A stretch of DNA of 36,312 nt from Bacillota bacterium (GTDB lineage Bacteria; Bacillota; Clostridia; Peptostreptococcales; Acidaminobacteraceae), in contig JAUMWO010000005.1 of NCBI GenBank assembly GCA_030529605.1, forward strand, positions 1 to 36,312, in the 5' to 3' direction. The translations under genes and the position numbers were made by a program. Shown here in pieces: positions 21,929-36,176 of this stretch. Each line of letters starts with the position of its first letter. Position 1 is the stretch's first letter. The notes below the pieces were generated by a model that saw nothing but the letters and a program-made list of their open reading frames with translations, was not told the DNA's origin and made no database searches.

Positions 21929-22924
21929 ATGGCAAAATATCTCGTCACGGCGGTGATCGCTCTGTTGTTGATCTTCGCAACGGCTTGTCAATTTTCGGGA
22001 GGAAAGGAGCTTCCTCCGGAGACATCCTCGGACGCCGGATCGACTGCGCCGACCGGACCATCTGCGCCGACTGCGCCGCAGCCGTCACAGCCTTCGCAGG
22101 TGCCCGATCTCGGGACTTTGGGGTCTTACCAATTCTCCTTCTCCGGGGGGCTGGCAAACGACTATTACGAAGCGCGTGTGGAGCGCGATGCAGAGGGAAA
22201 GCTCTGGTTTTATGAAATTCCGGCGCTCGGAGGATGGGCGAATGACGAACGGGTCGGCTATCGCTACGCGATGCAGGACGATGCGTTGGAGCGCATCGAA
22301 AAGCATCTCAAGGAGCAGGGACTTTGGGTGTCGGAGCCGTTTCCTTCCCCGGATCCGGTGGTCATGGACGGTCTCACCTACTCGTGGGGATTTTCAACCG
22401 AACAAGGGTATTTCAATATCTACAATGGCATGGGCGCCGAAGCTTCGGTGAGCAAACGACTTCACGAACTCACTGTATTTGTTGAAGCCCTGCGCGGAAA
22501 TGCGGCGAGGGAAAAGGATCCGGCAACCGCACCGCTGAAGCCGGAAGACATCGTCGGGATCCAACTGCAGTCCGGTTCGCGCAGTGCGATGTTGCTCTCG
22601 ATCCCGGGAAAGCAGGACTTTCACATCGATTCCGTCGGGAAGGATGTCGCGAATCTGTCCTATGAGGAGCTTCTGGAACAAGTGCTCGCCAAGTACAAAG
22701 AAGCGGAAGGAAAGTGGGGCGCGGAAATCTGGGATCGGTATCCTCTGGCGATGCCTTCCGGCGCTGAGGTCGCCGAAGGATACTACCGCCTTGCTCTCCT
22801 CGTGCGACAGGAGGAGGAACCGGATGCGTTCCGCATGGTCACGAAGCTGAATGAATCGGTGTCAAAGGATGCCGCCGCTTGGATCGAATCGATCTTCGAG
22901 TTGCTGCAAACTCATTCGAAATAG
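21929..22924 (+). CDS. Lipoprotein of unknown function, paralogue of the next gene
   Basis: Probable surface lipoprotein of 331 residues. The start at 21929 (AAAGGAGGAGCT before it) gives a signal peptide MAKYLVTAVIALLLIFATAC with the lipobox cysteine at residue 20. A low-complexity S/T/P/A linker follows (about 28-60), then a folded domain that I do not recognise. This domain is shared with the next gene almost block for block: SFSGGLANDYYEARVERD, LWFYEI, YRYAM, LERIEKHLKEQGLWV, WGFSTEQGYFNI, EALRGNAAREKDP, EDIVGIQL and IWDRYPL. The pair arose by tandem duplication. The spacer to the next gene is 34 bases, so they are one operon. Confidence 0.85.
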   Translation: MAKYLVTAVIALLLIFATACQFSGGKELPPETSSDAGSTAPTGPSAPTAPQPSQPSQVPDLGTLGSYQFSFSGGLANDYYEARVERDAEGKLWFYEIPALGGWANDERVGYRYAMQDDALERIEKHLKEQGLWVSEPFPSPDPVVMDGLTYSWGFSTEQGYFNIYNGMGAEASVSKRLHELTVFVEALRGNAAREKDPATAPLKPEDIVGIQLQSGSRSAMLLSIPGKQDFHIDSVGKDVANLSYEELLEQVLAKYKEAEGKWGAEIWDRYPLAMPSGAEVAEGYYRLALLVRQEEEPDAFRMVTKLNESVSKDAAAWIESIFELLQTHSK

Positions 22925-22958
22925 GTCGTCCGGTCGCAAGGACCGCTTTGGAGGCGCA

Positions 22959-23894
22959 ATGACTCAAATTCTTTTCGGCGCTGCGATCGCCGTGCTGTTC
23001 GCCGCGTTTCTTCTGTGGCGACGGCGGAAACGACGGCCGGATCTCGGAGAGCTGCGATCGTATCACTACATGACTTCCGGCGGGATGATCAACAGCCACT
23101 ATGAGATCCGCTTGGAGCGAGATCCCGCGGGACGGCTGTGGTGGTATGAGATCGACGCGAAGGAGGAGGAGCCGTTCGAGAAGCGGATCGCGTACCGCTA
23201 CGCCTTGCCGGAAGATACCTTGGAGCGACTGGAACACCATCTTAAGGAGGCCGGACTCTGGGTCGCGCAGCCTTTTGCGGCGGCTCGCGTGGAAGTCCGG
23301 GACGCTCCGCCCCATGTCTGGAGTTTCTCGACGGACCGCGGTTATTTCCCAATCTGTTCGGCGATGCTCCCCGACGATCGGGTGCGGGATCGACTGCATG
23401 ATCTCAATTGCTTTGTCCGCTCGCTCCGCGGGGATGCGGTGCGCGAAAAGGACCCGTCGTACCCGCGGCTCAAGGCGGATGAAATCGTCGGGATCGAGGT
23501 AAGCGACGGCTTACGCAGCGCGCGGATTTGCATCCTTCCGGAAGAAAGGGAACTGCTGGTCGACGGAAGCGAGCGCGTGCCGCTCGCGACCGGCGAGGAA
23601 CTGTTTCGCCGGGCTCTCGATGAGTACGCCGTGCGATTGGCGTCGTTTGGAGATGCGATCTGGGATCGGTATCCTCTCGACGAGCCGAGCCCCGGGCTGC
23701 CGGTACCATCAAACTCCGAGTCGCCGGGTTACCGCATTCATCTGCTCGTTCCAAGCGAACAGATCGGCACGCGCTATGACGCGATCAGAAAACTCGGCGA
23801 TCCCGCGCCGCAAAGCGGCGTAGCGCTGATACAAAGTATTTACAGGCTTTTGGACGAACAGTCGAAGGAGTTGCAGAGGATGGAGATGCAATAA
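22959..23894 (+). CDS. Membrane-anchored paralogue of the preceding lipoprotein
   Basis: Protein of 311 residues with the same domain as the preceding gene but a different anchor: a single N-terminal transmembrane helix (about 4-20, ILFGAAIAVLFAAFLLW) followed by RRRKRR, and no lipobox or linker. Matching blocks are YHYMTSGGMINSHYEIRLERD, LWWYEI, YRYAL, LERLEHHLKEAGLWV, WSFSTDRGYFPI, RSLRGDAVREKDP, DEIVGIEV and IWDRYPL. TTGGAGGCGCA precedes the ATG. The positive-inside rule places the domain in the cytoplasm if RRRKRR stays inside, opposite to its sister; this is worth noting but unproven. Confidence 0.82.
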   Translation: MTQILFGAAIAVLFAAFLLWRRRKRRPDLGELRSYHYMTSGGMINSHYEIRLERDPAGRLWWYEIDAKEEEPFEKRIAYRYALPEDTLERLEHHLKEAGLWVAQPFAAARVEVRDAPPHVWSFSTDRGYFPICSAMLPDDRVRDRLHDLNCFVRSLRGDAVREKDPSYPRLKADEIVGIEVSDGLRSARICILPEERELLVDGSERVPLATGEELFRRALDEYAVRLASFGDAIWDRYPLDEPSPGLPVPSNSESPGYRIHLLVPSEQIGTRYDAIRKLGDPAPQSGVALIQSIYRLLDEQSKELQRMEMQ

Positions 23895-24322: not shown

Positions 24323-24363
24323 ATATGTCGGTCATCATTCATGCCGAGAGGCAAGGGGGAAGT

Positions 24364-25413
24364 ATGAGAACAGAGAACATTCGGGTAGGAATCTGGGGAT
24401 TCGGCGCGATGGGAAGCGGCATGGCGCGTATGCTTCTGACCAAGACCGGGGTCGAGATCGTCGGGGTATGCGATCTGAGTCCGGACCGCGTCGGCAAGAG
24501 CATTTTCGACGTGTTGGGCATTGAGCGGGGCGACCGTGCCGATGTGATCGTGACATCGAGTATCGACGAAGCGCTCGACGGCAAGCGTGTCGACCTCTGC
24601 CTCTGCGCGACCGACTCCTTCACCGCCAAAGCGTTTCCAAGGCTCAAGACCGTGCTCGAGAAAAAGATCAATGTCATCTCGACGGCGGAAGAAATGTCGT
24701 ATCCGCAAGCCCAAAATCCGGAGCTCGCGGCCGAACTCGATCGCGTCGCGCGTGAAAACGGCGTCACCATCCTCGGTACGGGCATCAACCCCGGACTGAT
24801 CATGGACTTGCTTGTCGTCGTACTGACGGGTTGTATGACCGATCTGACACATGTCGAAGCGAAGCGGGTCAACTCGCTGTCGCCATTCGGACGTGCCGTC
24901 ATGGAAGAGCAGGGGGTCGGAATTACGGTCGAGGAGTTTGAGCGAGGGGTGTCGGACGGCAGCTTGGCAGGACATGTCGGCTTTGCCGAGTCGATTCGTA
25001 TGATCGCCGACGCGGTCGGTTGGAACGTCGACAAGATCGAGACCCAGATGAAGCCGATCGTCACAAGCGTCGACCGCAAATCCCCACACGGCTTCGCAGC
25101 GGCAGGGCATGTTGCGGGCGTCGCGATGACGGGACAGGGCTATGTCGACGGCAAGCCGATCATCGATATGATTCATCCGCAGCAGATCGAGCCGGAGATG
25201 GAAGGCACTTACACGGGAGACTATATTACGCTCAAAGGGACCCCGGAAGTCAATATGAGCATCAAGCCGGAGGTCGAGGGTGGACTCGGAACCATCGCGA
25301 TGTGCGTCAATATGATTCCGCAGGTGATCAATGCCGAACCGGGGCTCAAGACGATGCTGGATCTGCCGGTTCCACGTGCAATGATGGGCGATATGCGTCG
25401 TCTCGTCAAATAG
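24364..25413 (+). CDS. ord: 2,4-diaminopentanoate dehydrogenase (Ord)
   Basis: NAD(P)-dependent enzyme of D-ornithine fermentation: it oxidises (2R,4S)-2,4-diaminopentanoate, releasing ammonia and giving 2-amino-4-ketopentanoate. 349 residues, the family size. A Rossmann fold opens with VGIWGFGAMGSGMARML (GxGxxG near residues 12-17), followed by VCDLSPDRVGK and the STAEEMSYP and GTGINPGLIMD segments typical of DAP dehydrogenases. The start has AAGGGGGAAGT before it and lies just downstream of the sigma-54 start site. It is the first gene of ord-ortA-ortB-oraS-oraE. Confidence 0.96.
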   Translation: MRTENIRVGIWGFGAMGSGMARMLLTKTGVEIVGVCDLSPDRVGKSIFDVLGIERGDRADVIVTSSIDEALDGKRVDLCLCATDSFTAKAFPRLKTVLEKKINVISTAEEMSYPQAQNPELAAELDRVARENGVTILGTGINPGLIMDLLVVVLTGCMTDLTHVEAKRVNSLSPFGRAVMEEQGVGITVEEFERGVSDGSLAGHVGFAESIRMIADAVGWNVDKIETQMKPIVTSVDRKSPHGFAAAGHVAGVAMTGQGYVDGKPIIDMIHPQQIEPEMEGTYTGDYITLKGTPEVNMSIKPEVEGGLGTIAMCVNMIPQVINAEPGLKTMLDLPVPRAMMGDMRRLVK

Positions 25414-25421
25414 GAGGAGTG

Positions 25422-25727
25422 ATGAACCAAGCAATCCAAGTGCACATCGGCGATTGGGTCAAGATTCATGCCATTGTGCTCGCGCCGGCGGACCGCGCAC
25501 CGAACATTCCGGAGGAAACGTCGCGCGTGCCGCTCGAGATGTGGGTCAAAGGGCATGTCACCGAAATCGGATCGGACGGTCAGGTGGCGGTACGCACGAT
25601 GACGGGGCGCATTGAGCGCGGGACGGTCACCGAGGTCAATCCGACCTACAGTCATAGCTTTGGACATTTCGTACCGGAGATTTTGCGCATCGGTCGTGAT
25701 CTCAAGGAGTTCCTATATGAAAAATAA
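25422..25727 (+). CDS. ortA: 2-amino-4-ketopentanoate thiolase, alpha subunit (OrtA)
   Basis: Small subunit (101 residues) of the PLP-dependent thiolase that splits 2-amino-4-ketopentanoate with CoA into D-alanine and acetyl-CoA, the last step of the oxidative ornithine pathway. Recognised by size, position and family sequence (GDWVKIHAIVLAPADRAPN, LEMWVKGHV, GTVTEVNPTYSHSFGHFVPE). The ribosome site GGAGGAGTG follows the ord stop directly, and the 3' end overlaps the ortB start by 11 bases, giving coupled synthesis of the two subunits. Confidence 0.95.
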   Translation: MNQAIQVHIGDWVKIHAIVLAPADRAPNIPEETSRVPLEMWVKGHVTEIGSDGQVAVRTMTGRIERGTVTEVNPTYSHSFGHFVPEILRIGRDLKEFLYEK

Positions 25728-27159
25728 AAGCTATGCGGCCGTCATGGCGCGACGCGGCGAGATTATGAAAGCGGCGATTGGTATCGATTACGCTGCATTT
25801 GAGAACGGATCGATCGCGTTCGACTACGAAAAAATGATGCGTGAGACCGGATACAGTCTCAGTGAAATCGAGGAAATCCAAGCTTCTGTCGGCGTCGGAA
25901 ACACCCCGATATATGAACTCAAGAATCTCACCGCACTGGCACGAAAACTGGCCGATGCCGGCAGGGGAGCGCGTATTTTCTTAAAGGACGAGGCTGCCAA
26001 TCCGTCCGGATCGTTCAAGGCGCGTCGCGCCGCGACGGCTGTCTACCATGCCAAGAAACTCGGTTACCGGGGCGTCATCGCCGCGACTTCCGGCAACTAC
26101 GGTGCGGCGGTCGCTTCGCAGGCTGCGATGCAGGGACTCAAATGCATCATCGTGCAGGAGACCTACGATTCGACAGGCAAGGGTCAGCCGGAAATCATCG
26201 AGAAAGCCCGAAAATGCGAAGCGTACGGCGCCGAGGTCGTGCAGCTTTCTGTCGGCCCGGAGCTCTTTTATCAATTTTTGATTCTCTTGGAGGAGACCGG
26301 ATATTTTAATGCGTCGCTGTATACGCCGTTCGGCATCGCCGGAGTCGAAACCCTCGGATACGAGCTCGTGATGCAGATGCGTGAGCGGTACGGCGTCGAT
26401 CCGACGGCGGTCGTTTGCACCAACGCCGGCGGAGGGAATCTAACCGGCACGGCGCGCGGTTTGATCAAAGCCGGGGCATTGGAGACCGAGGTAATCGGCG
26501 CTTCGGTCGATCTCTCCGGGCTGCACATGGCGAGTGATAACGATTTCAACCGCAAGTCTTTCACCACCGGACACACCGGATTCGGACTCCCGTTTGCTAC
26601 GATGCCGGATCGCTCGGATGTTCCGCGCTCGGCGGCACGACCGCTCCGCTATCTCGATCGCTATGTGACCGTGACGCAGGGTGAGGTCTTTTATATGACG
26701 GAGGCGCTCGCACAGCTGGAAGGGCTGGAGAAAGGCCCCGCGGGAAACACTTCGCTGGCTGCGGCCTTTGCCATCGCGCAGGAGATGAACGACACAGAAA
26801 CCATCGTCGTACAGGAAACCGAATATACCGGCGCCGGGAAGCATTTGCAACCGCAGCTGAGCTTCGCGCGTGAGAACGGGATCGCGATTGATTTTGGCGA
26901 TCCGCGCGAATCGACTCCCGGAAAGAACATTATTTTACCGGAGCATCCGCGGTTGCTCCGCTGTGTCGATCTCGATCTCGACAAGATCCGGCACTCGCTG
27001 ATCAAGCATGCCGTCCAGCCATTCCTTGAGAAGGGACAAAGCATCACGGATGGCGATGTCGTGTATCTTGCACAGGAAACAAAGACGGACACCGATTATG
27101 TCCGGCGGGTCGTGGATTCCCTCACAGAAGGGATTCGCGATCGATCAAGGAAAGGATGA
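25717..27159 (+). CDS. ortB: 2-amino-4-ketopentanoate thiolase, beta subunit (OrtB)
   Basis: Catalytic PLP subunit, 480 residues, of fold-type II like threonine synthase. The PLP lysine is in NPSGSFKARRAA; the phosphate-binding glycines are in TNAGGGNLTGT; SGNYGAAVASQAA and GIAGVETLGYE are further family blocks. The start MKNKSYAAVMARRG at 25717 lies within the end of ortA; in-frame sequence upstream of it is only ortA in another frame. It works with OrtA to release acetyl-CoA and alanine. oraS begins nine bases after its stop. Confidence 0.95.
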   Translation: MKNKSYAAVMARRGEIMKAAIGIDYAAFENGSIAFDYEKMMRETGYSLSEIEEIQASVGVGNTPIYELKNLTALARKLADAGRGARIFLKDEAANPSGSFKARRAATAVYHAKKLGYRGVIAATSGNYGAAVASQAAMQGLKCIIVQETYDSTGKGQPEIIEKARKCEAYGAEVVQLSVGPELFYQFLILLEETGYFNASLYTPFGIAGVETLGYELVMQMRERYGVDPTAVVCTNAGGGNLTGTARGLIKAGALETEVIGASVDLSGLHMASDNDFNRKSFTTGHTGFGLPFATMPDRSDVPRSAARPLRYLDRYVTVTQGEVFYMTEALAQLEGLEKGPAGNTSLAAAFAIAQEMNDTETIVVQETEYTGAGKHLQPQLSFARENGIAIDFGDPRESTPGKNIILPEHPRLLRCVDLDLDKIRHSLIKHAVQPFLEKGQSITDGDVVYLAQETKTDTDYVRRVVDSLTEGIRDRSRKG

Positions 27160-27168
27160 GGAGTTCTC

Positions 27169-27543
27169 ATGAAGGGATTTATCAAACGAGAAGATGATTT
27201 TGCGACCCGTCGCGCCCATCTTCAGAATATGTCGGATGAAGAGCTGAAAGCTCGTTTTTGGGATTTGACCGGACAGATCGTCGATCCCTTGCTGGATTTG
27301 GCGCGCAAACACACATCGCCTTCCATTGAACGTTCGGTATTGCTTCGCATGGGCTTTTCCAGCCTTGAAGCGCAGCCGCTCGTTGAAGGCGCAATCGATC
27401 GCGGCTTGATCGGTCACGGAGTCGGCCATGTGGTGTATCGGATTTCCAAGGAAAAGGGTCTCGATCTGCGGGCAGCCGGACTCGAACTGATCGAAGGCAA
27501 GCATTGGGAAGATGCCGTGCGCATGTTCAAAGGAGGGAAGTAG
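27169..27543 (+). CDS. oraS: D-ornithine 4,5-aminomutase, small subunit (OraS)
   Basis: Small subunit, 124 residues, of the adenosylcobalamin- and PLP-dependent enzyme that moves the terminal amino group of D-ornithine to C4, giving 2,4-diaminopentanoate. Typical family segments are DDFATRRAHLQNMSDEELKARFW, HTSPSIERSVLLRMGFSS and GLIGHGVGHVVYRIS. GGAG lies seven bases upstream of the ATG. Its stop is followed at once by the oraE ATG (TAGATG), as expected for a 1:1 complex. Confidence 0.96.
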   Translation: MKGFIKREDDFATRRAHLQNMSDEELKARFWDLTGQIVDPLLDLARKHTSPSIERSVLLRMGFSSLEAQPLVEGAIDRGLIGHGVGHVVYRISKEKGLDLRAAGLELIEGKHWEDAVRMFKGGK

Positions 27544-29763
27544 ATGTATCGACTGCAACCGGATCAAAAAATTGATGTCAAGGAGATCCTGAAAGATCTC
27601 GATCAGTATCGTCCGCGTCGTCGCGGATGGACTTGGCGAGAAAAAAGCGACCGGCAGCATTACGGACCATTTGTCTATCGTGATATGTCGACCCCGCTCA
27701 AACAGTACATCGGCATCCCGGCAGCGCAGTATTTCAACAACATCGACCCTCAGCCGAACAACAACATCACGACCGAGATTGCATCGGGAAGGTTTGAGGA
27801 CGACATCCGTCGGATGCGGATGGCGGCTTGGCATGGGGCGGACCACATCATGGTCATTCGGACAGCGGGACAATCCCATTTTGACGGATTGATCGAGGGA
27901 ACTCCGCAGGGGATCGGCGGCGTGCCGATTTCGCGCAAGCAGGTGCGTGCGCACCGCAAAGCGCTCGATCTGATCGAGGAAGAGGTCGGTCGTCCGATCA
28001 ACTATCACTCCTATGTCTCGGGCGTCGCCGGACCGGATGTCGCCGTTATGTTGGCGGAGGAGGGAGTCAACGGCGCGCACCAGGACCCGCAGTACAATGT
28101 CCTGTACCGCAACATCAACATGGTGCGCTCCTTCGTCGATGCGGCGGAATCCAAGAAGGTGATGACTTGGGCGGGGATGACTCAGATCGACGGTGCGCAC
28201 AATGCGAATGCGACGGCACGTGAGGCATGGAAGGTCATGCCGGAGCTGATGGTGCAGCATGCGATCAACGCGTTGTATTCGCACCGTGTCGGGATGCCGA
28301 AATCCTCGATCGCCCTCTCCACCGTGCCTCCGACCTCATCGCCGGCTCCTTGTATGAAACTCGACCTGCCGTATGCGGTCGCGCTTCGCGACCTCTTTGA
28401 CGAGTATCGGATGCGCGCGCAGATGAACACGAAATACATCACTTCGTCGGCGCGCGAGGCGACGGTTACGCATGTCATGAACATGCTGATCTCCCGCCTG
28501 ACATCGGCGGACATCCAGTCGACGATCACCCCGGACGAAGGGCGCAATGTGCCTTGGCACATGTACAATATCGAAGCCTGCGATACGGCGAAGCAAACGC
28601 TCGCCGGGATGGACGGACTGATGGATATGGTGCAGCTGCGGGACGAGGGATACCTGCGCGACAAGGCGCGCGAGCTCAAAGAACGCGCCATCCTCTACAT
28701 GGAGGAGATTCTCGAGGCGGGCGGTTACTTTAACGCGGTCGAGCAAGGCTTCTTCGTGGATTCGGGGATTTATCCGGAGCGAAACGGAGACGGCATCGGT
28801 CGTAAAATTGATGGCGGTGTCGGAGCCGGTACGGTTTACGAGCGTGCCGAGGACTATATGGCGCCGGTGACCGCGCATTTCGGCTACAACAACATCGCGC
28901 AGTACGGCGGTTCCTGCGAGAATCCGTCGGATTTGATCGACGGCTGTACCTTTGAAAAGCCGGAAAAGATCATTTACATCGACGAGCTCGACGATCAGGA
29001 CAATGTCAATGTCCGGATGGCGGAGTCCGATAAATACCGCGGGGAACACGGAGATTCTCCATTCGTCAAGCCGGAGGTGCAGTGGCTCGGCGACGGTGTC
29101 GTACAAGTCGAGATCTTGCTCCCGACTTCGCTTCGTGTCGCGCAGTTTGCGGCGATCGAATTTGCCAAGAAGATGAATCTCCGCGATGTGGAGCTGATCC
29201 ACATCGAACCGATGCATCCGGTGGAAGCGACCCGCGTTCAGCTCAAAGGTGTGCTCGATTTCGACATCGACGTGCGCAACTTGGTGATCCCGCCGGAGGC
29301 GGAGGTGATGAATGACGACGAGATCCGCGGGGAATTCGAGAAGCACCCGGTCAAGATCGTCGCCGGTACCGTCGGCGAGGACGAGCATTCCGTCGGTCTT
29401 CGCGAAGTCATCGACATCAAGCATGGCGGCATCGAGAAATACGGCTGCGAGGTCGAATACCTCGGTACCTCCGTGCCGGTCGAAAAGCTGGTCGACGCGG
29501 CGATCGAGATCGACGCCGATGTCATTCTCGCTTCGACCATCATCTCGCATGACGACATCCATTACAAAAACATGAAGCGCATTCATGAGTACGCGCTCGA
29601 AAAAGGGGTGCGCGACCGCTTCATCATCTGCGCCGGCGGTACGCAGGTCACCCCGGAGATCGCCCGCGCCAACGGCATGGACGAAGGTTTCGGCCGCTAC
29701 GACCGCGGCGTCAACGTCGCCACTTACCTTGTCAACAAGCGCCGTGCGATGAGAGGAGAGTGA
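27544..29763 (+). CDS. oraE: D-ornithine 4,5-aminomutase, large subunit (OraE)
   Basis: Catalytic subunit, 739 residues, with an N-terminal TIM-barrel region that binds PLP and substrate and a C-terminal Rossmann-like cobalamin domain. The B12 axial histidine is H615 in DEHSVG (a DxHxxG motif), and the PLP lysine is K626 in DIKHGG, eleven residues later, the same spacing as His618/Lys629 in the characterised clostridial enzyme. IICAGGTQVTPEIA near the end is the conserved cobalamin-side loop. All parts are intact. It requires a reactivating/accessory function, probably the GlmL/MutL-like protein whose end is at the right edge of this window. Confidence 0.97.
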   Translation: MYRLQPDQKIDVKEILKDLDQYRPRRRGWTWREKSDRQHYGPFVYRDMSTPLKQYIGIPAAQYFNNIDPQPNNNITTEIASGRFEDDIRRMRMAAWHGADHIMVIRTAGQSHFDGLIEGTPQGIGGVPISRKQVRAHRKALDLIEEEVGRPINYHSYVSGVAGPDVAVMLAEEGVNGAHQDPQYNVLYRNINMVRSFVDAAESKKVMTWAGMTQIDGAHNANATAREAWKVMPELMVQHAINALYSHRVGMPKSSIALSTVPPTSSPAPCMKLDLPYAVALRDLFDEYRMRAQMNTKYITSSAREATVTHVMNMLISRLTSADIQSTITPDEGRNVPWHMYNIEACDTAKQTLAGMDGLMDMVQLRDEGYLRDKARELKERAILYMEEILEAGGYFNAVEQGFFVDSGIYPERNGDGIGRKIDGGVGAGTVYERAEDYMAPVTAHFGYNNIAQYGGSCENPSDLIDGCTFEKPEKIIYIDELDDQDNVNVRMAESDKYRGEHGDSPFVKPEVQWLGDGVVQVEILLPTSLRVAQFAAIEFAKKMNLRDVELIHIEPMHPVEATRVQLKGVLDFDIDVRNLVIPPEAEVMNDDEIRGEFEKHPVKIVAGTVGEDEHSVGLREVIDIKHGGIEKYGCEVEYLGTSVPVEKLVDAAIEIDADVILASTIISHDDIHYKNMKRIHEYALEKGVRDRFIICAGGTQVTPEIARANGMDEGFGRYDRGVNVATYLVNKRRAMRGE

Positions 29764-32947: not shown

Positions 32948-33779
32948 TCACTCCAAGGTTTTGTTGTGCAGCAAGGTCAATCGATCATTGCCGAGTTCCT
33001 GTTCCCAAATTCTACCGTCCGGTGCGATGTAGTAATTGTGTACCACGGTGATCGGAGGGGGCTGGTACCGCACGATCCAGGATCTCCGGCACATTCCACA
33101 TCCAGGTGCGGATCATCGTGGGATTGAGGAATCCGAGACCTTCGGTCGGTTGCTGTGTCAAGATGAGTGTGGTCTCTTGAAATTCGTCTTCCGTGAGCAG
33201 GAGATCTTCGTCCGGTTCGGAGAGAGTCAGGCGGTTGATCGGCCCTCTCTCCGGATATTGGACGACATAATTCGCTGCAATCTTCTTGCGCGGCGCAACT
33301 TCATCGCCGCTCATGTCGAGTTCGAGATCCATCGAGAGCCGGCCGCTAAAGGCGTAGAGATCCCCCGTGTAGGAGTAGAGGATGTCGTCCATCGAAGCAT
33401 GCGCCGGATCGACTCGAAGCAGGTCGACGCTGACCGCGGAGAGCTCCAGAAAGAGGATGCGCAGATAATGTTCCTCACCGGTTCCGCCGTAGTTTGGGAT
33501 CTCGGCGATCCATTGTCCTTGCTTGAGTTCATCCGGAATGCTGTCGAGGTAATGCGAGAGGTTGTTCAGCTGCTCCTCTGCCGGCTCGGTGCCGGCGATG
33601 TCAGTCTGAGCGGTGCCTTCGTTGCCCGCTGCGGAGTGAGGGACAGAAGTCATCTCCGTTCGGGTATTCGAGCCGTTATTCGTGCCGGGATCGGATACGT
33701 CCGCTCGGCAGCCACAGAGGAAGCTCAGCATGAGACTGATCGATACGAGTAACGCGATTTTCGAGGGTTTCAGGATCAC
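32948..33779 (-). pseudogene. Lipoprotein, paralogue of the upstream gene, with internal deletion and frameshift
   Basis: It begins with a GTG at 33779 overlapping the stop of the upstream paralogue (GTGA) and has a lipoprotein signal (KIALLVSISLMLSFLCGC). It then follows its sister: WIAEIPNYGGTGEEHYLRI, LTLSEPDEDLLLTEDEFQETT, LNPTMIRTWMWNVPEILDRA. After that the frame runs into out-of-frame residues and stops at 33012. In a second frame the expected ending appears, VVHNYYIAPDGRIWEQEL, up to a TGA at 32948. Compared with the sister, about 25-30 residues between PEI..RA and the APDGR block are missing. A deletion that also broke the frame is the simplest reading. If translated, a tail-less version would be made. 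Confidence 0.75.
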
Positions 33780-34711
33780 CGGAATGTTTCGCTCCAAATC
33801 AGCTTGTTGGTGTCGGTCACCGGATCGTATTCCCAGACTCTGCCGTCCGGAGCGAGGAAAAAGTGATACTCCGCCACAAACTGTCCGTAGTGATGAAGTC
33901 CGAGTTGGACGAGGAGGCAATCGATGTTGTCGATGACGGCGGTTTCCTCGGTGACGCGCATCGCCAAGGTTTCTTGTTTGGTCGCGCGCTCAAAGATTTC
34001 CGGGATGCCGAACATGTAATGGCGCACCATGGTCGGGTTCAGCAATTCCATCCCCGGGCGAATTTCCTGGATCAAAGTGTATGTCGTATCGGGGAATTCG
34101 TTCGAACGGAGCAGCGGATCGAGCGTCGGTTCGGAGAGTGTAAAGAAGCGTGTCTCCGCATCCAGTGCGTAGGAAACGCGGTATTCGGCATCGATTTCGT
34201 CGCGCGGAATATCGCTCGGACTCAGCCCGTTCCCGGCATATTCCAAATGCAGTTTCATCCGAAACTTCCCGTCTTGTGCGACGAGCTCGCCTTCATAGGA
34301 TGCGAGAATCTCGTTGGACGGATTGATTGCTCCGGCCGGATCTTTCACGATGTCCACACTGAGTATGGAATTGGGGAAGAAGATCATCCGGAGCGAGTAC
34401 TCCTGCCCGCTGCCGCCGTAGTTTGGAAGCGGTGCGACCCAATATCCGTTCAGCATTTCCTTGGGGAGACCGTTCGGAACGGGATCTGTCACTGCGGATG
34501 CGTAAGGTGTCGCACTCTGAGGCGAAGAGGTAAGGGTGTAAGTCTGGGTTTCCGGCGCCGTCGTCGGACTCCCTGCCGCCGTGGTCGGAAGCGACGAAGT
34601 CGAAGGTGCGGTCTCGGTAGGGTTGGAGCTCGGTTCACTCTTACAGCCGGCGAGGCAGATCAGGATCAATGCGAACGCGATCAGCACTGCGGTCATACGT
34701 TGTTTGTTCAT
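33776..34711 (-). CDS. Lipoprotein of unknown function (intact paralogue)
   Basis: Surface lipoprotein of 311 residues. The ATG at 34711 overlaps the stop of the arsC-like gene (ATGA). Signal peptide MNKQRMTAVLIAFALILICLAGC, lipobox LAGC with the cysteine at residue 23, then a long S/T/P/A-rich linker (about 25-75). The folded part has WVAPLPNYGGSGQEYSLRMIFF, TLSEPTLDPLLRSNEFPDTT, LNPTMVRHYMFGIPEIFERA and, near the end, FLAPDGRVWEYDP. The family is not known to me, but the next gene is its clear, damaged paralogue. It is unrelated in sequence to the pair at 21929-23894. Confidence 0.82.
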   Translation of the reverse strand: MNKQRMTAVLIAFALILICLAGCKSEPSSNPTETAPSTSSLPTTAAGSPTTAPETQTYTLTSSPQSATPYASAVTDPVPNGLPKEMLNGYWVAPLPNYGGSGQEYSLRMIFFPNSILSVDIVKDPAGAINPSNEILASYEGELVAQDGKFRMKLHLEYAGNGLSPSDIPRDEIDAEYRVSYALDAETRFFTLSEPTLDPLLRSNEFPDTTYTLIQEIRPGMELLNPTMVRHYMFGIPEIFERATKQETLAMRVTEETAVIDNIDCLLVQLGLHHYGQFVAEYHFFLAPDGRVWEYDPVTDTNKLIWSETFR

Positions 34712-35052
34712 AAGTCTTCCCACTCCTTTTCTTTGAAGCCGATCAAAACGCGGTCTTTCGTGATCAGAAGCGGGCGTTTGACGAGCATACCGTCGCCGGC
34801 GAGCATTTGGTATTGCTCTTCCTCGGACATCGTCGGCAGCTTGGACGCGAGTTCGAGTCCGCGGTATAGTTGTCCGCTGGTGTTGAAAAATCGTTTGAGC
34901 GGCTGGTTCGAGAGCTGATGCCATGCGCGAATTTCCTCCACGGTCGGTTTCTCGAGTTTGATGTCGCGCATCACATAGTGTCGATTGTGTGTTTCAAGCC
35001 AAGCCTTGGCTTTTTGACAAGTTGTTCATTTTGGATAGCAAAGAAACAGCAT
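34708..35052 (-). CDS. Candidate selenoprotein of the ArsC/Spx/YusI family (in-frame TGA = Sec at residue 9)
   Basis: Thioredoxin-fold reductase-like protein, 114 residues if the TGA at 35026-35028 is read through. The true start is the ATG at 35052 (GAAGGAGGAACT before it): MLFLCYPK, then TGA, then TTCQKAKAWLETHNRHYVMRD. Family members such as B. subtilis YusI read YPKC-TTC-(R/K)KAK at this place, so the TGA stands exactly on the first, catalytic Cys of CxxC, while the second Cys is kept. The rest is typical (RFFNTSGQLYRGL, DGMLVKRPLLI, VLIGFKEKEWE). A hairpin at 34996-35012 lies at SECIS distance. Ordinary calling gives only an 88-residue fragment from an inner ATG (34974) without the active site. 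It is 59 bases downstream of the racemase and overlaps the next lipoprotein gene. Confidence 0.85.
34996..35012 (-). promoter_or_regulatory. Candidate bacterial SECIS element
   Basis: In the mRNA, 13 bases after the UGA, AAGCCA-AGGCT-TGGCUU forms a six-pair stem with a five-base loop; the loop begins 20 bases after the UGA. Loop AGGCU carries G in its first two positions, as bacterial SECIS elements do, and recalls AGGUCU of E. coli fdhF. Confidence 0.65.
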
Positions 35053-35111
35053 AGTTCCTCCTTCGTGTTTTCCCCGGGGATGGTCGGGATAGTTCTGCAG
35101 AGCAGTACCCG

Positions 35112-36176
35112 TCACCGGATCACTTTCTTGACATAACGGCTGGTGAAGGCGCGCAGCATAGCGCCGTAATCGCATCGGAAGCGTAACACATCGCCGACGC
35201 GATACGAAGCGGAGCAATCGGTCAGGTCGAAGATGGTGTGATCGCTGGAACCGCCGACGAGGGTGATCGCCGAGTCGAGTGGAGTCAATCCGCTTGCGTC
35301 GATGTCCTGTTTGCCGATGGCGACGATGGCGCGGAGTCGTTCACCGCGATCGACGAAGGTCGGAACCTGCCCGAAGGCGTCGTAGCCGATTTCGCCGGTC
35401 GGTACCGACGGTTTGTGTTTGAGCTCGACGATCTCGGCTTCGAGGACGAAGGTGTCGTTGTGAAAGCCCTCGAGTTCTTTGAGATAGGCGGTCTCCTTGC
35501 CGCAGACGACGGCCTCCCCGATCCGCAGATTGTTGATGCCCTTCGGCATCTTGCCGCTCTGCAGAAGCGGAATGCTGCTCGAATTGCCGCCGGAGACGAT
35601 AGCAAGTTGTACGCCGTATTTGTTTTCGATCGCCGCCGCCGTATTCGCAAGGACGCCGAGGTTGTCGCCGGACGGGATGACGCCCCCGTAGCATGTCAGA
35701 TTGACGCCGATGCCCTTGAGTTCGAGATGAGGAGCGCGCAGCACTTCGCCGGCGACTTCGATCGCTTCCTCGGGCTTCATTCCTTCGCGCAGATCGCCGA
35801 GATCGACCATGAGGGCAATGCCATGTCGAAGTCCGGCGCGGGCTGCCGCATCGGCGAGTGCCCGAATCGTCGTAACTTCCGAGTTGAGGCTGATCTCGGC
35901 ATGCCGGACCACCGCATCCACTTCGGAGAGCATCGGCAGTCGCAGCAAAACCCTTGGGACACCAAGTGAAGCGAGCTGCTCCAGATTCTCGATGCGGGAG
36001 TCCGCGAGCGCTTCCACGCCGGCTTCGACGGCGATGCGCGCGAGTTCCGGCATCGCCGTGTAGACCTTGGTCACGGCGAAGATGCCGACACCATGCGCGC
36101 GGCCGATTTCGACCATGCGCGAATAATTGTGTTTGAGTTTGGCGGCATCGATGACGATGCGCGGGTAGCTTGTCAT
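35112..36176 (-). CDS. orr: Ornithine racemase (Orr), PLP-dependent
   Basis: Alanine-racemase-like PLP enzyme of 354 residues interconverting L- and D-ornithine, the entry step for the D-specific aminomutase. The PLP lysine is in GIFAVTKVYTAMPELA (K near residue 37). Further barrel motifs are ALADSRIENL, MVDLGDLREGM, GVNLTCYGGVIPS, and VSGGNSSSIPLL, the phosphate-binding and Tyr/Ser region of this group. It lacks the C-terminal beta-domain of Alr-type alanine racemases, as expected for Orr. The ATG overlaps the stop of the upstream GlmL/MutL-like gene (ATGA), its usual neighbour in ornithine clusters. Confidence 0.93.
   Translation of the reverse strand: MTSYPRIVIDAAKLKHNYSRMVEIGRAHGVGIFAVTKVYTAMPELARIAVEAGVEALADSRIENLEQLASLGVPRVLLRLPMLSEVDAVVRHAEISLNSEVTTIRALADAAARAGLRHGIALMVDLGDLREGMKPEEAIEVAGEVLRAPHLELKGIGVNLTCYGGVIPSGDNLGVLANTAAAIENKYGVQLAIVSGGNSSSIPLLQSGKMPKGINNLRIGEAVVCGKETAYLKELEGFHNDTFVLEAEIVELKHKPSVPTGEIGYDAFGQVPTFVDRGERLRAIVAIGKQDIDASGLTPLDSAITLVGGSSDHTIFDLTDCSASYRVGDVLRFRCDYGAMLRAFTSRYVKKVIR

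Follow-up and report, generated by a model that had tools for sequence, protein, structure and literature searches.

The gene on the minus strand at positions 34708-35052 of the window (the whole stretch of DNA analyzed, 36,312 nucleotides from a genome of the Acidaminobacteraceae) very probably encodes a selenoprotein with selenocysteine at residue 9 (Sec9) as its redox residue, an estimate that pertains to the selenoprotein as such and not to the choice of its role. Judged from profile matches, the product is a Spx/YusI-type protein (TIGR01617) that is full-length when the in-frame UGA is read through. The gene parts and the adjacent genes are the following.

34708..35052, minus strand: whole read-through gene, 114 residues including Sec9, with the stop codon TGA at 34710-34708
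35026..35028, minus strand: in-frame TGA, codon 9, very probably read as Sec; TGA in 34 further homologs, TGC or TGT in 104
35057..35063, minus strand: Shine-Dalgarno sequence AAGGAGG, 4 nt 5' of the ATG at 35052-35050
34996..35012, minus strand: bSECIS-type hairpin AAGCCAA-GGC-UUGGCUU, 7 bp, loop 20 nt after the UGA
35017..35019, minus strand: codon of Cys12, the second residue of the UxxC motif according to the alignment
34771..34776, minus strand: Arg93-Pro94, the RP motif belonging to the Trx-like fold and shared by all aligned sequences
35112..36176, minus strand: upstream gene, similar to ornithine racemase Orr (NF040742, 464 bits with a cut-off of 480)
33776..34711, minus strand: downstream lipoprotein-like gene, overlapping the stop of the read-through gene by ATGA

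Reading frame and decoding of the in-frame UGA

Read from 35052 on the minus strand, the sequence is ATG CTG TTT CTT TGC TAT CCA AAA TGA ACA ACT TGT, which translates as MLFLCYPK-UGA-TTCQKAKAW followed by an open frame down to the TGA at 34708; re-reading reproduced the frame that had been claimed in an earlier note on this DNA. Ordinary ORF calling recovers only 34974-34708 (88 aa, GTG start), an ORF devoid of strand 1, helix 1 and the active site, so that the claimed loss of the active site under standard calling is real. The notion that the UGA is an ordinary stop, with the gene broken or only this 88-aa downstream ORF translated, draws on that calling result but is hardly credible in view of the strong ribosome-binding site in front of the ATG at 35052, the lack of any Shine-Dalgarno-like sequence found upstream of the GTG at 34974, the conservation of residues upstream of the UGA, the intact frame across the domain and the truncated fold of the short ORF. 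The residues flanking the UGA on both sides match those of close homologs beyond chance (MLFLCYPKCTTCQKAKAWL in L006, 66% identity), and an ordinary stop combined with a decayed N-terminus, named earlier as a pattern that would speak against a selenoprotein, is found in none of the relatives examined. At third positions, codons 1-25 (34978-35052, minus strand) contain 32% G+C, compared to 70% over the remaining codons and 40-76% over the first 25 codons of other window genes; part of this depression may be due to the hairpin. The Orr-like gene is located on the same strand, separated by 59 nt from the start codon of the read-through gene, and the latter is likely to be translationally coupled to the downstream lipoprotein-like gene via the ATGA overlap. 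No match to the downstream gene was found in Pfam or NCBIfam, and a scan for promoters and terminators around the read-through gene yielded no hits above those in shuffled sequences.

The genome encodes the Sec machinery: selA, an adjoining selD truncated where the contig ends, selB and the gene for tRNA-Sec (selC; 73 bits with a threshold of 47) were all found, so that absence of selB or selC, put forward earlier as a possible counter-argument, does not hold. No match to GrdA (PF04723) or GRDB (PF07355) was detected in this 71%-complete genome, and the controls gave no match either, so that this negative carries no weight. Bacterial SECIS elements carry a G in the first two positions of the loop, and the loop starts 16-37 nt after the UGA. 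Hairpins were scored by these two rules, with loop lengths of 3-14 nt allowed, using a purpose-written script. The hairpin in the window, with its 7 bp, loop GGC and distance of 20 nt, conforms to this definition, and the earlier description of a SECIS-like hairpin at a normal distance stands. Under synonymous recoding of the peptide, the hairpin score was reached in 0.2% of 5000 trials with the codon usage of the window (p = 0.002) and in 0.48% with uniform codons (p = 0.0048). The folding energy of the hairpin is unremarkable compared to dinucleotide shuffles (z from -1.2 to -0.4). Among the homologs, the recoding test gives p<0.05 for 18 of the 35 UGA genes versus 6 of the 104 Cys genes, and in an earlier set of 25 UGA and 73 Cys genes the hairpin scores differ with a Mann-Whitney p of 3e-10, with the independence of the genes overstated by their relatedness in both comparisons.

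These observations bear on the alternative that the UGA is decoded as Cys or Trp without selenium, through either a reassigned code or near-cognate read-through. Natural misreading of UGA exists and the UGA stands in for Cys in this gene, in line with such decoding. Several other genes in the window terminate at UGA, which argues against wholesale reassignment of the codon, and the presence of both the Sec machinery and the hairpin makes decoding without selenium highly improbable. Under the preferred selenoprotein reading, ribosomes would initiate at 35052 and meet the UGA at codon 9; the hairpin at 34996-35012 would recruit SelB together with Sec-tRNA-Sec, resulting in the insertion of Sec and completion of the Trx-like domain. 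Sec insertion along these lines is predicted from the machinery and the signal that are both seen in the sequence.

UGA or cysteine codons at position 9 of the homologs

Of the 139 homologous genes inspected, 70 have TGC, 34 have TGT and 35 (the window gene among them) have TGA at codon 9, which bears out the claim that the UGA occupies the position of the catalytic Cys. The 35 TGA genes comprise that of the window, 8 from other genomes of the same family, 10 from elsewhere in the order and 16 distant loci (L070-L085), mostly from Syntrophomonadaceae; the distant loci were found via shared peptide patterns (e.g., TCQKAKAW) and are accordingly biased toward this motif, whereas the whole-genome searches were free of such patterns. 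Apart from the distant Syntrophomonadaceae-type bacteria, the UGA form spans four families of the order. It is present in the closed genome G028, in the near-closed genome G180 and in the named, cultured species Acetoanaerobium noterae (L158), where the protein is very similar to that of L150. The nearest homologs of the window protein by identity all contain Cys, and this, along with the fragmented assembly (190 contigs, 71% complete), is what could be expected if the TGA were a sequencing or assembly error for TGC or TGT in a gene for an ordinary Cys-containing YusI-type protein. Such an error is nevertheless very improbable given that 34 independent sequences, those of G028, G180 and A. noterae among them, share a UGA at this codon, that the hairpin is improbable under the peptide and that the whole Sec machinery is encoded in the genome. 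In the same order outside the family of the window, selA was detected in 9 of the 10 UGA-form genomes versus 10 of the 30 Cys-form genomes (Fisher p 0.003, a rough value because the genomes are related; the sole exception, G345, is 82% complete). Within the family, selB does not discriminate between the two forms, with matches in 41 of 41 genomes (39 above the cut-off).

The motifs at this site are UxxC (27 sequences, which answers the earlier suggestion that other UxxC members might exist), UxxS (4), UxxA (3), UxxV (1), CxxC (102) and CxxV (1). Sec forms without the second Cys come from several genomes of the order: UxxS in L103, L105, L108 and L151, UxxA in L146, L153 and L154, and UxxV in L152. 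Such variability of the second position implies that the residue there is dispensable and that the constant redox residue is the one at the first position. The resolving Cys invoked in the earlier note is indeed retained in the window protein, as Cys12, but is inessential across the family. The UxxV protein L152, to which the window protein is 45% identical, shares 77% identity with the CxxV protein L155 that is encoded in a genome of 4.26 Mb from the same order. Trees built from about 117 columns are poorly resolved, such that gains and losses are indistinguishable; about 6 changes between Sec and Cys (4 of them forced) are reconstructed on one tree and about 10 (well-supported branches force at least 5 of these) on the other. 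As read from these sequences, Sec and Cys have been exchanged repeatedly at a single codon within the YusI-type subfamily.

Family assignment, putative role and genomic context

The read-through product scores 88.2 bits against TIGR01617 (arsC_related, Spx/MgsR-type), above the cut-off of 75.05, and 65 bits against Pfam ArsC (cut-off 24). In the AlphaFold model (mean pLDDT 96.6), residue 9 directly precedes the first residue of helix 1, and the Sec9 position is the place of the reactive Cys in Spx and ArsC. The best structural match is 3gkx (TM 0.96), followed by 3fz4, 2m46 and Spx (0.88-0.89) and by E. coli ArsC (0.80). Two other identities were considered and rejected: that of canonical Spx, with 59.1 bits against NF002459 (cut-off 123) and Pro51 in place of Gly52, and that of the 'ArsC family (seleno)protein' model NF041106, with 28.5 bits, far under the cut-off of 85. 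The assignment of Pro51 to the Gly52 column of Spx, a residue in contact with the C-terminal domain of the RNA polymerase alpha subunit, comes from reading of the alignment. YusI-type proteins are defined by a CxxC-type redox motif, the RP motif and the lack of Gly52 (PMC11481553). The window protein displays UTTC, with Sec for the first Cys, the RP motif within KRPLL, and Pro51, the latter replacement in agreement with the account of the YusI subfamily in the work on OseR (PMC11481553).

The label 'ArsC-like' in the earlier note thus holds insofar as the protein is YusI-type, but not in the sense of an arsenate reductase, and Spx/YusI-type is the better term. A selenocysteine arsenate reductase would agree with the ArsC fold, including the similarity to the E. 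coli enzyme, and with the common naming of the family, e.g., the Sargasso Sea 'arsenate reductase' with UxxS (PMC1088965). It is nonetheless very unlikely considering the score of 24.2 bits against the glutaredoxin-type arsenate reductase model TIGR00014 (cut-off 106.05), the absence of any adjoining arsenic gene among those seen and the fact that the 3gkx-type protein and Spx are the nearest solved relatives.

With modest confidence, the most likely role appears to be that of a selenol-disulfide oxidoreductase in O2 or peroxide defense. By analogy with the chemistry of the family, the Sec9 selenolate would be the nucleophile that attacks an oxidized partner (a disulfide, sulfenate or peroxide), after which a selenenylsulfide could form with Cys12 or an outside thiol and be reset by cellular thiols. 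In 5 of the 16 distant loci (L072, L080, L081, L084 and L085), the gene directly upstream of the UGA-containing ArsC-like gene encodes a peroxiredoxin that itself carries an in-frame UGA at the peroxidatic Cys (DFTFV-UGA-PTE), an arrangement that favors a peroxide or disulfide reductase and provides the most distinct functional neighbor to recur. These pairs appear to be tandems of two putative selenoproteins, and the peroxiredoxin neighbor is limited to the distant clade. The gene in the window lies close to a cluster of genes for ornithine fermentation (ord, ortB, oraE), with 2,4-diaminopentanoate dehydrogenase, OrtB and OraE at 24325-29763 on the plus strand all scoring above the NCBIfam cut-offs; its neighbors, the ornithine racemase and the lipoproteins, provide no pointer to oxidative defense. 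The neighborhoods of the close Cys relatives revealed no conserved functional partner, the clusters being dominated by antisense or shadow ORFs and taxon-specific neighbors. Two pairs of adjacent genes in the window are also of note, the lipoprotein-like paralogs at 33012-33920 and 33776-34711 on the minus strand (38% identity over 242 columns), and the genes at 21932-22924 and 22956-23894 on the plus strand that look like paralogs by eye (LG-LxSY start, RLERD/RVERD-LWxYEI stretch).

The rival to the enzymatic role, equally compatible with Sec, is that of a Sec redox switch in a YusI/OseR-type regulator, where O2 or peroxide would oxidize Sec9 and thereby lift the repression of O2-defense genes; this is a real possibility although not the one we expect. 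Sec usually serves turnover in enzymes, which speaks against a regulator, as does the limited identity of the window protein to L152. A precedent in the YusI subfamily is OseR of C. difficile, which is needed for the O2-dependent control of the fdp and revrbr genes and has CxxV instead of CxxC (PMC11481553), and the genetics of OseR favors a redox regulator. The close similarity of the CxxV protein L155 to the UxxV protein L152, Pro51 at the Gly52 column as in YusI-type proteins and the presence of a rubrerythrin gene in the genome point in the same direction. The description of L155 as OseR-like is itself putative, the likeness to OseR (CD1777) being drawn from the published CxxV motif. The broader proposition that OseR-type O2-responsive regulators of anaerobic Clostridia use Sec for sensing in several lineages, with the window protein and L152 as examples, is conceivable but rather unlikely.

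Selenoproteins of the ArsC family that carry UxxS or UxxC have been in the literature since 2005 (PMC1088965, PMC2398784, PMC13188914), and reviews list them with a largely undefined function. A text search of open-licence papers for Sec-containing Spx returned only papers on selenium in plants, and YusI-type proteins with Sec do not seem to have been described as such. Swapping of Cys and Sec in YusI-type proteins ties this selenoprotein group to OseR, a type of protein with a genetically shown role in the response to O2, and adds selenium forms, in which the second Cys can be replaced by Ser, Ala or Val, to a little-studied family related to oxygen and redox. Sensing of O2 by selenium becomes testable in the cultured A. 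noterae, which carries the Sec form. On the practical side, ordinary ORF calling strips the active site from such genes, and the Sec-aware model NF041106 scores them below its cut-off.

Comparison with known proteins

The ArsC-family selenoproteins of the NF041106 and Sargasso/GOS type share with the window protein the Trx/ArsC fold, Sec as the first residue of UxxC or UxxS and a bSECIS shortly downstream; the window protein differs in belonging to the TIGR01617/YusI-type group, in which its closest members by identity contain Cys. OseR of C. difficile, a member of the same YusI-type family, likewise contains the RP motif, lacks an equivalent of Gly52 and has the redox residue where helix 1 begins, but its motif is CxxV with Cys, whereas the window protein has UxxC with Sec and only a putative regulatory role. 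Canonical Spx of B. subtilis (PDB 1z3e, 3gfk) is similar in structure, at the TM-scores given above, and in the CxxC-type motif, yet the window protein has Pro51 for Gly52 and an identity of about 26%. The closest solved relative is a putative ArsC-related protein from Bacteroides fragilis (PDB 3gkx), which is 59% identical in the structural alignment but contains Cys where the window protein has Sec, in an entry that names no function.
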